Shown one piece after another: positions 1,619-41,836 of a stretch of DNA of 46,818 nt (positions within the stretch are counted from its first letter, which is position 1; each line of letters opens with the position of its first letter). Origin of the DNA: an uncultured Spartobacteria bacterium (GTDB lineage: Bacteria > Verrucomicrobiota > Verrucomicrobiia > Chthoniobacterales > Chthoniobacteraceae); contig CAIRYQ010000080.1 of NCBI GenBank assembly GCA_903882875.1, positions 1 through 46,818 of the forward strand, written 5' to 3'. Both the position numbers and the translations under genes were made by a program. The notes under the pieces are model-generated. The model saw nothing but the letters and a program-made list of their open reading frames with translations, was not told the DNA's origin and ran no database searches.

Positions 1619-3316
1619 ATGAAAAGATACCCCATCCTCATCGCATCCGCCGTCCTGTTGTCGGCGGGAAATCCATTCGCCGGCGAAATCGTCGGCTTCA
1701 AAGCTCAGGTCCAGCCCGGCGGCAATCCTCAGGGCGGCGCTTGGGGCAAGTCCGCGGCGGCATGGTACATCGAGGGCATCGAGAAGACCGTGAAGCTCAC
1801 ACCCGAGCAGAAGGAGGCCATGACGAAAATCATCGAGACGCGCGACAAGGCATCGAAGGAACTGCAGGAGAGGCACGGCGAGAAGATGAAAGCCGCCATG
1901 CAGGCGATGACGGACGCTTACAAGGCCAAGGACAATGAGGCCATCGCCAAGGCGCAGAAAGATTACCAGGCAGCCAGCGCCGACACGACCAAGCTCTTCA
2001 AGCAGGCCCAGACCGACCTCGACAACGTGCTGACCGCCGAGCAAAAGGCGCAGCGGCAGGAGCAGTCCTTCGCGCAAGCCATCAAGTGGATGACCGATCC
2101 GGCCAAACTCAGCGCGGAACAGACCGAGAAGCTCAAGGCCATCCTTGCCAAACAGGGTGCCGTCGGCGGACGCGAGGGCGGCGAACGCGCGGAACACGGT
2201 TGGAATGAAGCCGTCCAGAATGTGCTGACCGCGGAACAGAAGGCGATCATCGCAAAGCACCGCGCCTTGTCCCAAGCAAAGGCCACGGTTGGCCAGGTGA
2301 AACTGACCGCCGAACAGTTGCAGAAGATCGAGGCGGCATACGACGACCTCACGAAGACCGCCAATCCCAACAGCGAAGCCATCGCCCAAAAGCTCTCCGA
2401 GAAAATCAACGGCCTGCTCACCGCGGAGCAAAAGGAGGCGATGAAGAACAACGTGTGGACGCAAGCGGGCGCACCGGCCCGGAAAGTTGCCACAGTGGCG
2501 GCACTCGGACAGCGTGCGGCAGGCTCGCCGCAGGTCATCCGCATCGGCGAGGGCGGCGAAGGGCTCACTGTGACCATCAACGGCGAAAAGGGGAAGGCCG
2601 CCCAAGGCGAACCCAAGAGTTCCGTCGCCCGGACCATCCAGTTCGCCGAGCCCCACTGGCAGAATGAAAAAGGCCCGTGGCTCGGTCTCGCGATGGAGCC
2701 CGCCTCCGAAGCGCTCCGCGCTCAACTTTCCCTCGGAAAGGAAGAGGGGCTCCTCGTCAGCCATGTCGTGCAAAGCAGCCCCGCAAACCGCGCCGGCCTC
2801 GCGCGAAACGACATCCTCCTGCGCCTCGATGACCAGATTCTCGTAGAGCCATCGCAGCTCAGGAAACTCATTTCGATGAAGAAACCCGGCGACCAAGTGA
2901 AACTCACCTATTTGCGCAAAGCCGAGCGCAAGGAAACCACCGCGACGCTCATCGAACACGTCATTCAATCCGCAGAACATCCTACTTTCGAGTGGTCCGA
3001 GGCTCCGGGCCAACATCGCAAGACCGAAGGACGGGACCGTGAAGTGATCGAACACCTCGATCTCCTGCTCCGGAACATAAGAAACAAGCCTCCCGGCGCA
3101 GCCCCGCAGGAAAACCCCTACGTACCCCGGCTCAATCCCGCGCCCGGCGCGCCTCTCCTGCAAAACCCTCACCCGCCCCGGCCCAAAGCCGCTCCGGGCG
3201 CGGCGCTCCCGCAGAATCCACAACCACTCCAACTCAACGTCGTTCCCGGTGCGCCACTTCCGCCGCTCGGCATCCCGGCACCCAAGCCCAACCCTCCGTC
3301 GCCACAGGATCGCTGA
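1619..3316 (+). CDS. Exported LTxxQ-repeat protein with PDZ domain
   Basis: 565 aa from the ATG at 1619, which opens a signal peptide (MKRYPILIASAVLLSAGNPFAG). Residues about 55-290 are helical with at least six LTPEQ/LTAEQ/LSAEQ motifs, as in the Spy/CpxP (LTxxQ) periplasmic family, but with several repeats in tandem. Residues about 350-445 form a PDZ domain: a GPWLGLAM strand opens it and SSPANRAGLARNDILLRL carries the carboxylate-loop and helix features, like the PDZ of HtrA proteases. No protease domain is present. The C-terminus is proline-rich with repeated PGAP/LPQNP motifs. A periplasmic chaperone-like or scaffolding role is inferred only. Much longer in-frame extensions upstream come from the stop-free array and are rejected. 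The final 80 or so bases lie in a perfect tandem duplication. Confidence 0.8.
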   Translation: MKRYPILIASAVLLSAGNPFAGEIVGFKAQVQPGGNPQGGAWGKSAAAWYIEGIEKTVKLTPEQKEAMTKIIETRDKASKELQERHGEKMKAAMQAMTDAYKAKDNEAIAKAQKDYQAASADTTKLFKQAQTDLDNVLTAEQKAQRQEQSFAQAIKWMTDPAKLSAEQTEKLKAILAKQGAVGGREGGERAEHGWNEAVQNVLTAEQKAIIAKHRALSQAKATVGQVKLTAEQLQKIEAAYDDLTKTANPNSEAIAQKLSEKINGLLTAEQKEAMKNNVWTQAGAPARKVATVAALGQRAAGSPQVIRIGEGGEGLTVTINGEKGKAAQGEPKSSVARTIQFAEPHWQNEKGPWLGLAMEPASEALRAQLSLGKEEGLLVSHVVQSSPANRAGLARNDILLRLDDQILVEPSQLRKLISMKKPGDQVKLTYLRKAERKETTATLIEHVIQSAEHPTFEWSEAPGQHRKTEGRDREVIEHLDLLLRNIRNKPPGAAPQENPYVPRLNPAPGAPLLQNPHPPRPKAAPGAALPQNPQPLQLNVVPGAPLPPLGIPAPKPNPPSPQDR

Positions 3317-3499
3317 ATCCAAATTCCGGGGTGCAGGAACGAAGGATGGGATGCCAACTGTCTGCTTCAACGTCGTTCCCGGTGCGCCACTTCCGCCGCT
3401 CGGCATCCCGGCACCCAAGCCCAACCCTCCGTCGCCACAGGATCGCTGAATCCAAATTCCGGGGTGCAGGAACGAAGGATGGGATGCCAACTGTCTGCT
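3234..3499. repeat. Perfect 133-bp tandem duplication
   Basis: 3234-3366 and 3367-3499 are identical by eye over their whole length. The first copy contains the last codons and stop of the LTxxQ/PDZ gene and the second copy repeats them downstream without a gene. The absence of any mismatch implies a very recent duplication or an assembly artefact. Confidence 0.9.
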
Positions 3500-12347: not shown

Positions 12348-13874
12348 ATGACCACACGCGCCACGACATCACCCGCACCAAGGGCGGCACGCCACATTCC
12401 GAAAGTCGGGATGATCTCGCTCGGCTGCGCGAAGAACCTCGTGGATGCGGAAATCATGCTCGGCGATGTGCTCGCGCGAGGGATGCAAATCACGAATGAC
12501 GCGGATCAGGCCGACGTGCTGATCGTGAACACTTGCGCGTTCATTGATTCGGCGAAGGAGGAGAGCATCGAGGCCATCATCGAGGCGCACGAAGCGAAAG
12601 GCCTGAAGAAGAAACACAAGAACCAGAAGCTGATCGTCGCGGGTTGCATGAGCCAGCGCTTCAGCGTGGAGCTGGCCGTGGAATTCAAGAGCGACGTGGA
12701 TGCGTTCATCGGGCTCGATCAGGTGAAAGATGTCGGCGGGATCATCGAGCGGGTGCTCGGGCGTGGGGCGGAGAAAAGTGCTCAGTCCTCAGTGCTCAGT
12801 GCTCAGAAGAACGGGCGCGTGCCAGTCACCAGTCACCAGTCACCAGTCACAGACGCGAAAGCCGACGTGCTCCTCCACGACGAATGGCAGCCGTTGAATC
12901 TCGTCTCGCGCAAACCGGTTTACATCCCCGACTGGGACACGCCGCGCGTCCGGCTCACGCCGCCGCACACCGCGTACACAAAAATCGCCGAGGGGTGCAA
13001 TCACCCGTGCAGCTTTTGCGTCATCCCGCAGATGCGCGGGCGGCATCGGTCGCGCACCATCGAGAGCGTCGTCGCGGAAGTGCGCGGGCTCGTCGCGGAG
13101 GGCGTGAAGGAGATCAACCTCATCAGCCAGGACACGACTTACTACGGCATGGATCTGTGGGCGGAAAAGGCGGGGCCGCGGCAGAAGGTGGATCCGTCTC
13201 GCGGTGTCACGCTCGTGCATCTGCTGCAGGAGCTGGACAAGATTAAGGGCGATTTTTGGATCCGCCTGCTCTACACGCACCCGGCGCACTGGAGCGACGA
13301 ACTCATCGAGTGCATCGCGAAGACGCGCCACGTCGCGCGCTACGTGGACATGCCGCTGCAGCACATCCACCCGCGCATGTTGGAAATCATGAAGCGCGAG
13401 ACGAGCAGCGAGCACATTGAGAATCTCATCACGCGCATCCGTGCCGGCATCCCCGGCATCGCGATTCGCACGACCTTCATCGTCGGCTTCCCCGGCGAGA
13501 CGGAGGAGGAATTTGAATACCTCCTCGACTTCATCGCACGCACGCGGTTCGAGCGGCTCGGCGTGTTCATGTATTCGCAGGAGGAAGGTTCGCGCGCCGC
13601 GAAAATGGAGGGCCAGCTCCCGGCGAAGGTGAAGCAGGCGCGCTTCAAGAAGGCGATGAAGCTCCAGCAGAAAATCGCCGCCGAGATCAGCAAGGCACAG
13701 GTCGGCAAGACGGTCCGTGCCGTCGTGGACCAGCCGCTCATCGCCCGCGGCGAGACCGACGCGCCGGACATTGACGGCCGCATCCTGCTGAAGAAGCCCG
13801 CGCCCGTCGGGGAGTTCGTGAACGTGCGAATCACCGGCACGCAGGTGTATGACCTCGTGGGTGAGGTGGTGTAA
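12348..13874 (+). CDS. rimO: Ribosomal protein uS12 methylthiotransferase RimO
   Basis: 508 aa from the ATG at 12348. The N-terminal UPF0004 domain has the three cysteines that bind the auxiliary cluster (Cys27 in SLGCAKNLVDAE, Cys63, Cys100). The radical SAM motif CNHPCSFC (Cys217, 221, 224) follows, and a TRAM-like domain ends the protein (residues about 430-508, GKTVRAVVDQP and VNVRITGTQVYDLVGEVV). The SLGCAKNLVD motif separates RimO from MiaB. The enzyme methylthiolates the conserved aspartate of ribosomal protein S12. Between the first two domains (residues about 143-172) is an insert coded by two sets of heptanucleotide repeats. The first codon may be later than chosen, since the extreme N-terminus is not conserved. 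Confidence 0.95.
   Translation: MTTRATTSPAPRAARHIPKVGMISLGCAKNLVDAEIMLGDVLARGMQITNDADQADVLIVNTCAFIDSAKEESIEAIIEAHEAKGLKKKHKNQKLIVAGCMSQRFSVELAVEFKSDVDAFIGLDQVKDVGGIIERVLGRGAEKSAQSSVLSAQKNGRVPVTSHQSPVTDAKADVLLHDEWQPLNLVSRKPVYIPDWDTPRVRLTPPHTAYTKIAEGCNHPCSFCVIPQMRGRHRSRTIESVVAEVRGLVAEGVKEINLISQDTTYYGMDLWAEKAGPRQKVDPSRGVTLVHLLQELDKIKGDFWIRLLYTHPAHWSDELIECIAKTRHVARYVDMPLQHIHPRMLEIMKRETSSEHIENLITRIRAGIPGIAIRTTFIVGFPGETEEEFEYLLDFIARTRFERLGVFMYSQEEGSRAAKMEGQLPAKVKQARFKKAMKLQQKIAAEISKAQVGKTVRAVVDQPLIARGETDAPDIDGRILLKKPAPVGEFVNVRITGTQVYDLVGEVV
12779..12850 (+). repeat. Two 4x7-bp heptanucleotide repeats inside rimO
   Basis: 12779-12806 is four copies of TGCTCAG (the second is TCCTCAG) and 12823-12850 is four perfect copies of CAGTCAC, separated by 16 bases. 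They fall in the linker between the UPF0004 and radical SAM domains and keep the frame open. Repeat number change would alter the linker length or frame. Confidence 0.9.
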
Positions 13875-16586: not shown

Positions 16587-16796
16587 AACTGGGCTTTCTG
16601 GCTGAAAAGCGGTACCGCTTTGTCGCAAACGAGTACCCGTTTGCGGTAAACGAGTAATCGGATGCCATGGACGGGTACTCGTTTCCGGCAAACAAGTACT
16701 CGGATGCTGTGGACTGGTACTCGTTTCCGGCAAACGAGTACTCGGATGCCGTGGACAGGTACCCGTTTCCGGCATTTCGGTAGCTGTTCTGACAGG
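16587..16796. repeat. 21-bp tandem array 2 with 42-bp higher-order repeat
   Basis: Ten consecutive units of exactly 21 bp. The core units at 16629-16775 alternate between two types: ACGGGTACTCGTTTCCGGCA-like and ACGAGTACTCGGATGCCGTG-like, so a 42-bp higher-order period is visible. Outer units (16587-16628, 16776-16796) are diverged but keep the spacing. The GTAC core recurs at the same place in nearly every central unit. The unit sequence is unrelated to arrays 1 and 3. On the minus strand a frame reads through as a 14-residue peptide repeat, with no credible start. Confidence 0.85.
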
Positions 16797-39791: not shown

Positions 39792-41156
39792 ATGTTTCAA
39801 CCCATGCAAAATCCCATCTCACGCCGCTCACTCCTAAAATCCGCCAGCGGCGGCTTCGGCTACCTCGCACTCGCCGGCCTGCTCGGACAGCACGCGCCCG
39901 CCGCCATCGCGCAGCATCCGCTGCTGCCGAAAGCGCCGCATTTTCCGCCGCGCGCGAAACGCATCATCTTCGTCTTCATGGAAGGCGCGATGTCCGGCGT
40001 GGATACGTTCGACTACAAGGCCGAGCTGCAAAAAAATGGCGGCAAGGGCGGACCCGGCGGCGGCACGCTCACGGCGTCGAAATTTGCGTTCAAGCAATAC
40101 GGCCAGACGGGCTCGTGGTTTTCCGAACTGCTGCCGAACATCGCGCAGCACGCGGACAAACTCTGCTGGCTGCGCGGACTGCACACCGACACTCCCGCGC
40201 ATCCGCAGGCCGTCGTGCAGCTCCACACCGGCAGCGCGAATGCCGCGCTCACGCGCCCGAGCATGGGCGCGTGGCTGCTCTACGGACTCGGCACGGACAA
40301 CCAGGATTTGCCCGGCTACGTGACGATCAATCCTTCGCCGAATTTCGGCGGCGCGGTGAACTACGGCAGCGCATTCCTGCCCTCGCATTTCCAAGGCACG
40401 CGCATCACCGACGCCGGATTTTTGCCAAACATCAAGGCCGCGAGCACGACGGCGCTCCAGCGCAAGCAGATCGATCTCATCCAGGCGATGAACCGCGATT
40501 TTGCCGCGACGCCCGGTGCGCCGGATCCCGTCGAGGGCATCATCGAATCCTACGAGACCGGCTTCCGCATGCAGGGCAAAGTGCCCGAGCTGCTCGACAT
40601 TTCCAAGGAGCCGCAGGACGTGCGCGAAGCCTACGGCATCAAGGACGGACCCGGCGGCTCATTCGCGCGGCAGTGCCTCATGGCGCGTCGGCTCAGCGAG
40701 GCCGGCGTGCGGTTCGTCGAGATCACGCAGGGCGGCTGGGATCATCACAACAATTTGCACAAAGGTCTCATTGACCGCACCGGCAGCGTCGATCAGCCGA
40801 CCGCCGCACTTCTCGCCGACCTCGAACAGCGCGGCCTGCTCGAAGACACGCTCGTCCTTTTCGGCTCCGAATTCGGCCGCCAGCCCACCGCGCAAGGCCC
40901 CGACGGACGCGACCACAACATCACCGGCTACTCGATGTTCCTCGCGGGTGCGGGCGTGAAGAAAGGCTTCACCTACGGCGGCACGGACGAGTTCGGTATC
41001 AAGGCCGTCGAAGGCCGTATGCACACGAACGACCTCCACGCCACGCTGCTCGCGCTGCTCGGGCTCAACCACGAGCAGCTCACCTACCGCTACGCCGGCC
41101 GCGATTTCCGGCTCACGGATGTGGCGGGGGAGGTGGTGAAGGACATCATCGCGTAG
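39792..41156 (+). CDS. DUF1501 exported protein
   Basis: 454 aa. The N-terminus MFQPMQNPISRRSLLKSASG then GFGYLALAGLLG is a twin-arginine signal. Family motifs are IIFVFMEGAMSGVDTFDYKA (about 58-77), FGSEFGRQPTAQGPDGRDHN and DLHATLLALLGLNHEQLTYR near the C-terminus. It is the paralog of the protein at 22046-23443 and the last gene of the sulfatase operon, 19 bases after DUF1553. A 21-bp repeat array begins 4 bases after its stop codon, so the operon's transcript probably runs into the array. Confidence 0.93.
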   Translation: MFQPMQNPISRRSLLKSASGGFGYLALAGLLGQHAPAAIAQHPLLPKAPHFPPRAKRIIFVFMEGAMSGVDTFDYKAELQKNGGKGGPGGGTLTASKFAFKQYGQTGSWFSELLPNIAQHADKLCWLRGLHTDTPAHPQAVVQLHTGSANAALTRPSMGAWLLYGLGTDNQDLPGYVTINPSPNFGGAVNYGSAFLPSHFQGTRITDAGFLPNIKAASTTALQRKQIDLIQAMNRDFAATPGAPDPVEGIIESYETGFRMQGKVPELLDISKEPQDVREAYGIKDGPGGSFARQCLMARRLSEAGVRFVEITQGGWDHHNNLHKGLIDRTGSVDQPTAALLADLEQRGLLEDTLVLFGSEFGRQPTAQGPDGRDHNITGYSMFLAGAGVKKGFTYGGTDEFGIKAVEGRMHTNDLHATLLALLGLNHEQLTYRYAGRDFRLTDVAGEVVKDIIA

Positions 41157-41160
41157 GCGC

Positions 41161-41475
41161 AGCGCGCTGCTCATGTTGCGGGTGCAGACTGCGCATCCTG
41201 CCGTGCAGGCTGCACCGGTGGTTGCGAAGCGTGCGAATGGCCGCGTGCATCCTGCGTCTGCCACCGTGCGTCCTGCCATCGCCTGCGTGCGCGCTGTCAT
41301 CTTCGTCATGCGCTGTGCGTCGCCCCGCGTGCGTGGTGTCGCCTCCCGCGTGCAGTGTGTCAGCAGTGCCGTGCAGCGTGTCAGTGCCCCTGTGCAGGGT
41401 GCTTTTGGCCATTTTCATGGTGTCAGCACCCGAGTGCAGCGTGTCTGCACCCCCATACAGGGTGCTTTCGGCTCA
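41161..41475. repeat. 21-bp tandem array 3
   Basis: Fifteen units of exactly 21 bp with no slip, starting 4 bases after the DUF1501 stop (the first unit is the most diverged). The consensus begins GTGCRNNNTG. From 41182 onward every unit has TG at positions 9-10 and almost all have C at position 4, while the rest varies widely. Units nearest the palindromic element (41350-41454) resemble each other most. The next in-phase 21 bases (41476-41496) contain the left terminal repeat of the element, whose leading TG falls on the unit's TG. Frames across the array are open but lack starts. Confidence 0.88.
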
Positions 41476-41483
41476 TTTCGCCC

Positions 41484-41723
41484 TGCTTATCCGGTTGCTT
41501 GACACAGACAGGCTCTGCGAGGGCTTCGAGAATAGCCCAGCACTTCAGTGCTGGGTAAAAGATGGTGAAAACGAGCAAAGTCCCGTCAGGGACGGCAGAA
41601 CGCTCCTTCCGTCCCTGGCGGGACTTTGTTTTTCTGGAACCTCCGGTTCCCAGCGCTGAAGCGCTGGGCTATTTTCACGGCGTTCCCTTTCACCACGCGC
41701 TGTGTCAGGCAACCGGATAAGCA
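41484..41723. repeat. 240-bp palindromic element with terminal inverted repeats
   Basis: 24-bp terminal inverted repeats with one mismatch (TGCTTATCCGGTTGCTTGAC at the left; complement ending at 41723). Inside are the hairpins CCCAGCACTTCAGTGCTGGG, a long stem AAGTCCC-GTCAGGGAC with its complement GTCCCTGGCGGGACTTT, and CCCAGCGCTGAAGCGCTGGG, so most of the element is self-complementary. No gene is inside. It has the features of a MITE or REP/BIME-type element mobilised in trans. The copy at 1295-1437 is its left part. Confidence 0.88.
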
Positions 41724-41836
41724 CGCATTTCGCCATGTTAGCGCCCGATTATTTCGTGCTTGTCATGCTTTCTCCCTCTCCTTACCCTCGCGGAACCTCA
41801 ATCACACCATACCCAACCCCAGCCATCCTTCACCCC

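Follow-up and report, generated by a model that had tools for sequence, protein, structure and literature searches.

A tandem array in a Spartobacteria genome belongs to an apparently lineage-specific class of roughly 21-bp minisatellites whose units may be protein-recognition sites

Plasmid iterons and partition-site repeats are direct repeats of ~17–22 bp, a length near two helical turns, and a protein reads them from one face of the DNA. Iterons adjoin a rep gene and share a single consensus. In TIGR-Tas systems, the arrays are associated with a Nop-domain effector. Independent tandem arrays are expected to vary widely in unit length, and unrelated noncoding arrays that nonetheless have one common length would point to a common ruler, either mutational or functional. 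In lake Planctomycetota, noncoding deletions at intergenic tandem repeats are described in a published study (PMC9426551). Here we consider a stretch of 46,818 nt from an uncultured Spartobacteria bacterium of the family Chthoniobacteraceae, Verrucomicrobiota (GCA_903882875.1, contig CAIRYQ010000080.1), analyzed as a whole and referred to as the window. It contains an array from a set of 21-bp minisatellites that probably numbers about 70 or more across the genome. The features of the window that bear on the argument are as follows.

39792–41156, + strand: DUF1501 gene, last in the sulfatase – DUF1549/DUF1553 – DUF1501 series of genes that precedes the array
41161–41181, + strand: degenerate first unit of the array, in which TG is missing at positions 9–10
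41182–41482, + strand: array core, comprising units 2–15 plus the 7 leading bases of unit 16
41474–41482, + strand: left copy of a 9-bp target-site duplication
41483–41725, + strand: 243-bp miniature transposon-like element in unit 16, bounded by terminal inverted repeats and containing REP-like hairpins in its inner part
41726–41734, + strand: right copy of the 9-bp target-site duplication
41735–41769, + strand: continuation of the array in register, the remainder of unit 16 and a weak unit 17
1031–1280, + strand: second 21-bp array of the window; its consensus is unrelated, and a further copy of the element lies behind it at 1296–1436
16612–16775, + strand: third 21-bp array of the window, with a 42-bp superperiod; members of its family also lie on contigs C26 and C30

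The stretch at 41161–41475 consists of fifteen contiguous 21-bp units with zero indels. Its identity at lag 21 was 0.531, compared with 0.284 ± 0.027 in 500 dinucleotide shuffles, and exceeded the shuffle maximum for any lag between 3 and 89 (0.415). From 41182 onward, TG occupies unit positions 9–10 in 14/14 units and C occupies position 4 in 13/14, so the exact period and the TG core claimed in the original prediction both held. The placement of the array four bases behind the DUF1501 stop codon (which ends at 41156) is correct for position 41161; unit 1 lacks the TG, and the recognizable array therefore begins only at 41182. The proposed end at 41475 did not stand. When the sequences on either side of the 243-bp element were rejoined, a 16th unit was restored with an array-profile score of 7.4, above the 99.9% quantile of all 21-mers in the window (6.6), and a weak unit 17 followed (score −0.3). 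Two other repeats were noted in the window: a perfect 133-bp tandem duplication at 3234–3499 (two copies, 100% identity), and adjoining heptamer repeats of AGTGCTC (4.3 copies, 12777–12806) and CCAGTCA (4.1 copies, 12822–12850).

Since the element splits unit 16 and the array continues on its far side, the array predates this copy of the element and is not part of it. Insertion into or beside arrays is a recurrent pattern. The element gave 75 match rows in its own genome and was matched in 14/40 genomes of the family, its own genome counted. Among the 21 distinct copies in the genome that could be assigned a locus, 13 had a 21-, 22- or 42-bp array no more than 400 bp away, while the same was true of 8.6% of the noncoding sequence in the window plus 40 further stretches (binomial p = 1.5e-9); four of the other eight were at a contig end or within 116 bp of one. 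By eye, a 9-bp duplication was likewise present at the copy in L013 and was not seen at the copy in L014. The inner part of the element resembles REP hairpins, and of the three matches to Y1_Tnp that the genome contains, the one at C92:13522-13872 has element matches on its flanks.

Comparison of units within the array revealed how it has grown. Units 11–13 and 14–16 are identical at 47/63 positions, and mean similarity between units decays from 11.4/21 at lag 1 to 7.4/21 at lag 11, which together indicate local block duplication. Head-to-tail contiguous copies made by duplication define a minisatellite, and the array has this structure. The original prediction had argued against simple tandem duplication on the grounds that the columns vary nonrandomly; the nonrandom columns are real, but so is the duplication. 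The same units argue against a CRISPR array, as predicted, being contiguous, lacking an invariant repeat block and showing conservation that is graded by column.

To assess column constraint, we simulated change at a uniform rate on the tree inferred for units 2–17 with joined flanks. The dispersion of changes per column was 1.38, compared with 0.57 ± 0.17 in simulations, none of which (0/150) was as high, bearing out the claim of nonrandom constraint. The quiet columns are 2–4 (TGC) and 9–11 (TGY). Over-dispersion at p ≤ 0.02 was found in 9/19 arrays (this one and 8/18 others, including a coding array in alaS), with the proviso that the test relied on a single rate, a UPGMA tree and arrays trimmed by hand, and that context-dependent mutation could mimic part of the signal. 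Statistically, then, about half of the tested arrays have some columns that are fixed and others that drift.

These results bear directly on a purely neutral account, in which slippage or unequal exchange, perhaps aided by small inverted repeats, favors steps of ~21 bp, the units are functionless, and conserved columns reflect mutation context or recent common ancestry. We consider this account a real possibility, if somewhat short of probable. The absence of significant constraint in 10/19 arrays is in its favor, and so are several further observations: we found no counterpart of the window array in 9/9 congeners, a transposon insertion has been tolerated, and one array sits in a coding loop whose insert is missing in seven congeners. 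Against it, the uniform-rate simulation was rejected for the arrays listed above, and a neutral 21-bp ruler would itself need a cause.

We then surveyed the period of arrays across the genome (5.78 Mb in 129 contigs), scanning the window and 60 further stretches (1.215 Mb) for periods of 10–63 bp, with genes defined by home-made calling. All 16 noncoding arrays had a period of 21 (13 arrays), 42 (two) or 43 bp (one), while the 14 arrays covered by open reading frames had periods of 12, 18, 21 (eight arrays), 42 and 45 bp. Extending the scan to periods from 4 bp with a shorter scan window left 16/17 noncoding arrays at 21, 42 or 43 bp, the remaining one being 7 bp. The noncoding label depends on the gene-score cut-off (the C15 array, L152, for example, is 85% or 0% covered by open reading frames), which leaves the period unaffected. 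Arrays occur in co-directional (+/+ and −/−), convergent (+/−) and divergent (−/+) gaps, as well as inside alaS, and the suggestion that their placement is special to 3' untranslated regions was thus not upheld. Across loci, arrays carry whole-unit block duplications and lie mostly between genes.

For comparison, 80 loci from outside (1.173 Mb, from other organisms as judged by title, mostly Planctomycetota) gave 21-bp noncoding arrays in 1/4 cases with the long scan window and 2/7 with the short one, all of them in a single locus (L083) that by eye is Cys/Ala-rich and coding-like. The excess in our genome was significant in both settings (Fisher p = 0.0035 and 0.0027, respectively), in line with the genome-wide excess that the original prediction had called for. 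Arrays of this period in related genomes, which it had named as further support, were found as well. In 60 stretches from relatives totaling 1.156 Mb (140 kb of it from other genera of the family; gene model trained on our genome), 7/14 noncoding arrays had a period of 21 or 42 bp; the other seven had periods of 7 (four arrays), 8, 9 and 12 bp (one each). The first 363 kb scanned contained no 21-bp array, and later stretches were positive. So far, the class has been seen in several species of one genus, and the outside samples are free of it, barring the coding-like locus. Searches of the open-access literature turned up no account of such 21-bp arrays from Verrucomicrobiota.

In 800 kb of the genome (40 stretches chosen by coordinate rather than at random, six starting at a contig start) we counted 10 such arrays, omitting two inside a low-complexity gene (L148), which extrapolates to about 70 in the whole genome. 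The 20 contig-start stretches are array-richer, a biased density, since assemblies break at repeats.

To see whether arrays are related to one another, we compared 34 hand-trimmed arrays of the genome in every register and on both strands against 2,244 column-permuted comparisons. Most consensus units are unrelated. Eleven of the 34 arrays share units across loci, in four families that exceed or nearly exceed the null maximum:

L011, L012 and L242
L158, L249 and the window array at 16612
L152 and the first L188 array
L197 (1601-1978), L233 (1070-1426) and the second L188 array (12902-13384), within which the pair L197–L188 alone has p_emp = 0.00045

The pair L181–L158 also exceeded the null maximum and was not counted as a family. 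The 12-mer ACGAGTACTCGG occurs 13 times in the genome, always inside three arrays (4 occurrences for the backward control), and CCGGTCNGACYGG is confined to C15, C68 and C111 (control 0), the C68 sites lying inside alaS. Within this genome, matches to the half-site pattern of the window array were found in that array, on C25 (L248) and on C91 (control 0); L248 is also its best profile match, a weak one (p_emp = 0.0009, uncorrected for 561 pairs). Separately, we noted an outward-reading word, GAAAA(A)CGGC/CGCC, at one end of 8/26 arrays of the genome and no more than 50 bp away (L147, L158, L188, L190, L197, L011, L013 and L030), with two more matches within 200 bp that read inward. It resembles a polar flank mark, and array growth may have some polarity; a reading of the word as a CRISPR-like leader was dropped.

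The alaS gene of this genome (G000; tRNA-synt_2c) encodes ~100 residues of SSPTGGA repeats (residues 320–424), and the one in a congener, G002, carries a different 14-residue repeat in the equivalent loop. In seven other congeners the flanking segments are adjacent or ≤30 nt apart with no comparable insert, and among the nine congeners searched G003 had no alaS match at the cut-off. The repeats thus appear to be independent gains at one tolerant loop. With 21 divisible by 3, they leave the reading frame intact. The core of the alaS unit also builds the array on C15, suggesting that the process behind the arrays operates at the DNA level rather than on this protein. We note that the G002 alaS frame (L201:4549-8199) has, in addition to its 42-bp repeat, an in-frame segment similar to an IS200-like/RAYT transposase (Y1_Tnp E = 0.00075; 20.1 bits, under the cut-off of 23).

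A decayed or live heptad-repeat protein gene, 21 bp being seven codons, was the alternative that the original prediction had set against itself. All three forward frames are indeed open over the window array, as a seven-codon period would allow, and the alaS array is truly coding. Yet changes in the window array, summed from the constraint test, fall evenly over codon positions (34, 32 and 29) with no third-position bias, and the two open reading frames over it have no Pfam match above the cut-off (the best, LPP, had E = 0.032). Elsewhere, stops interrupt all six frames of L141, L017 and the second L188 array, and the existence of 22-bp arrays alongside the 43-bp one argues against codons as the ruler. 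We therefore regard a protein-gene origin as highly improbable.

We next considered whether the units act through secondary structure. Of 31 arrays (28 from our genome and three from relatives), 11 exceeded random units from the genome in palindromy at p ≤ 0.05 (Fisher p = 1.3e-8; the window array, with p = 0.106 and 0.18 in two tests, is not among them), as the neutral account would have it if hairpins drive slippage. Thirteen folded better than their column-permuted versions on both strands (z < −1.64), and none (0/31) folded worse on both. An RNA-level element, in which arrays are transcribed and units fold into hairpins, could draw on the same folding result, but several observations make it improbable. 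The window array lies outside the better-folding set (z = −0.5 and −0.2 against column-permuted versions; −1.5 and −0.2 against shuffles). The two strands fold about equally, arrays occur in divergent gaps too, and the window contains no Rfam match. Covariation within units was significant (max-null p ≤ 0.02) in only 4/32 arrays, and we dropped hairpins as a general reading.

The best single hint at mechanism comes from sister arrays and not from the window array. In the family of L197, L233 and the second L188 array, the conserved bases form a dyad, GNANNNNTNC, a motif picked after inspecting the units and expected 1.3–1.6 times per array. L197 has 15/15 matches in one phase, L233 has 11 and 4 in two phases, and the matches in L188 fall into three phases (9, 7 and 1), two of which are neighbors. 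A hairpin would require the inner pairs of the dyad to co-vary; a dimeric protein would not. Across the 47 sites there was no co-variation (Watson–Crick fraction of 0.28 vs. 0.29 for pair 1:8, p = 0.66; 0.43 vs. 0.45 for 3:6; 0.26 vs. 0.48 for 4:5), a result that fits protein recognition better than a hairpin. The alternating single conserved columns of this family are also hard to explain by tract conversion under neutrality. The most frequent inner-base words at these sites were GGCC (nine), TCCC (nine), GGGA (six), TCCA (four) and GCCC (four).

The idea of helical phasing, put forward in the original prediction, received a mixed answer. Over 30 arrays, there was a 10.5-bp excess for purine (z = 2.8) and for A (z = 2.6) among 70 values examined. 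For A/T, there was no excess at 10.5 bp (z = 0.0), which speaks against phased A/T bending, and there was one at 7 bp (z = 3.6). An origin from heptamers was rejected: although lag 7 is the top off-register lag of the window array (z = 2.4), its z averages 0.19 across 34 arrays.

Taken together, we judge the chances about even that these are minisatellites specific to the lineage and built on a ~21-bp ruler, with units that are, or once were, recognized by a protein. Speaking against this reading, 10/19 arrays lack significant column constraint, the palindromy of the window array is not significant, and L248, its sole candidate relative, matches it weakly. Both protein recognition and the cause of the ruler are what we infer from patterns in the sequences. 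The fixed columns would be contact points of a putative sequence-specific DNA-binding protein, with successive binding sites in each array spaced by about two helical turns. For the window array, the constrained TGC (2–4) and TGY (9–11) could represent two half-sites 7 bp apart. The ~21-bp period would be set by a DNA-level process that makes or keeps arrays, and not by codons. A stronger version, which we think unlikely, envisages genus-wide phased recognition arrays, with tens of homotypic clusters in many families made by dedicated copying in 21-bp steps; the binder of the GNANNNNTNC family may then be a dimer. The lineage is well suited to testing such ideas, as arrays are numerous and one is in frame within an essential gene. 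If units do serve as binding sites, chromosome marking in Verrucomicrobiota would gain a new layer.

How does this class compare with described systems? A TIGR array is not indicated, as PF01798 had no match in our genome while the control was positive in 4/14 genomes. Unlike plasmid iterons, the arrays differ from one another in consensus, the window array lies next to DUF1501 and to a protein that has no Pfam match, and ten flanking proteins tested included no replication initiator. The REP/RAYT system (PMC3733652) has a likeness in the REP-like hairpins of the element inside the window array and in the element-flanked Y1_Tnp match at C92:13522. REPs, however, are dispersed palindromes with a shared tag, while most of the 34 arrays lack a common consensus, and with the nonsignificant palindromy of the window array this led us to reject a REP or BIME assignment. 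The prokaryotic heptamers of the SPADE survey (PMC6344855) are echoed in the 7-bp A/T signal of the 21-bp units and in the 7-bp arrays of relatives; here the main unit is 21 bp, a period unmentioned in the main text of that survey. The closest likeness is to bacterial minisatellites, with which the arrays share head-to-tail copies, a mostly intergenic location, whole-unit duplication and absence at the compared sites of relatives. They differ in that one period dominates the sampled noncoding arrays despite unrelated units, and in that constraint differs from column to column in about half of the tested arrays. Among bacterial minisatellites, the class stands out for a single dominant unit length spanning several families, and it has so far been seen in one genus.
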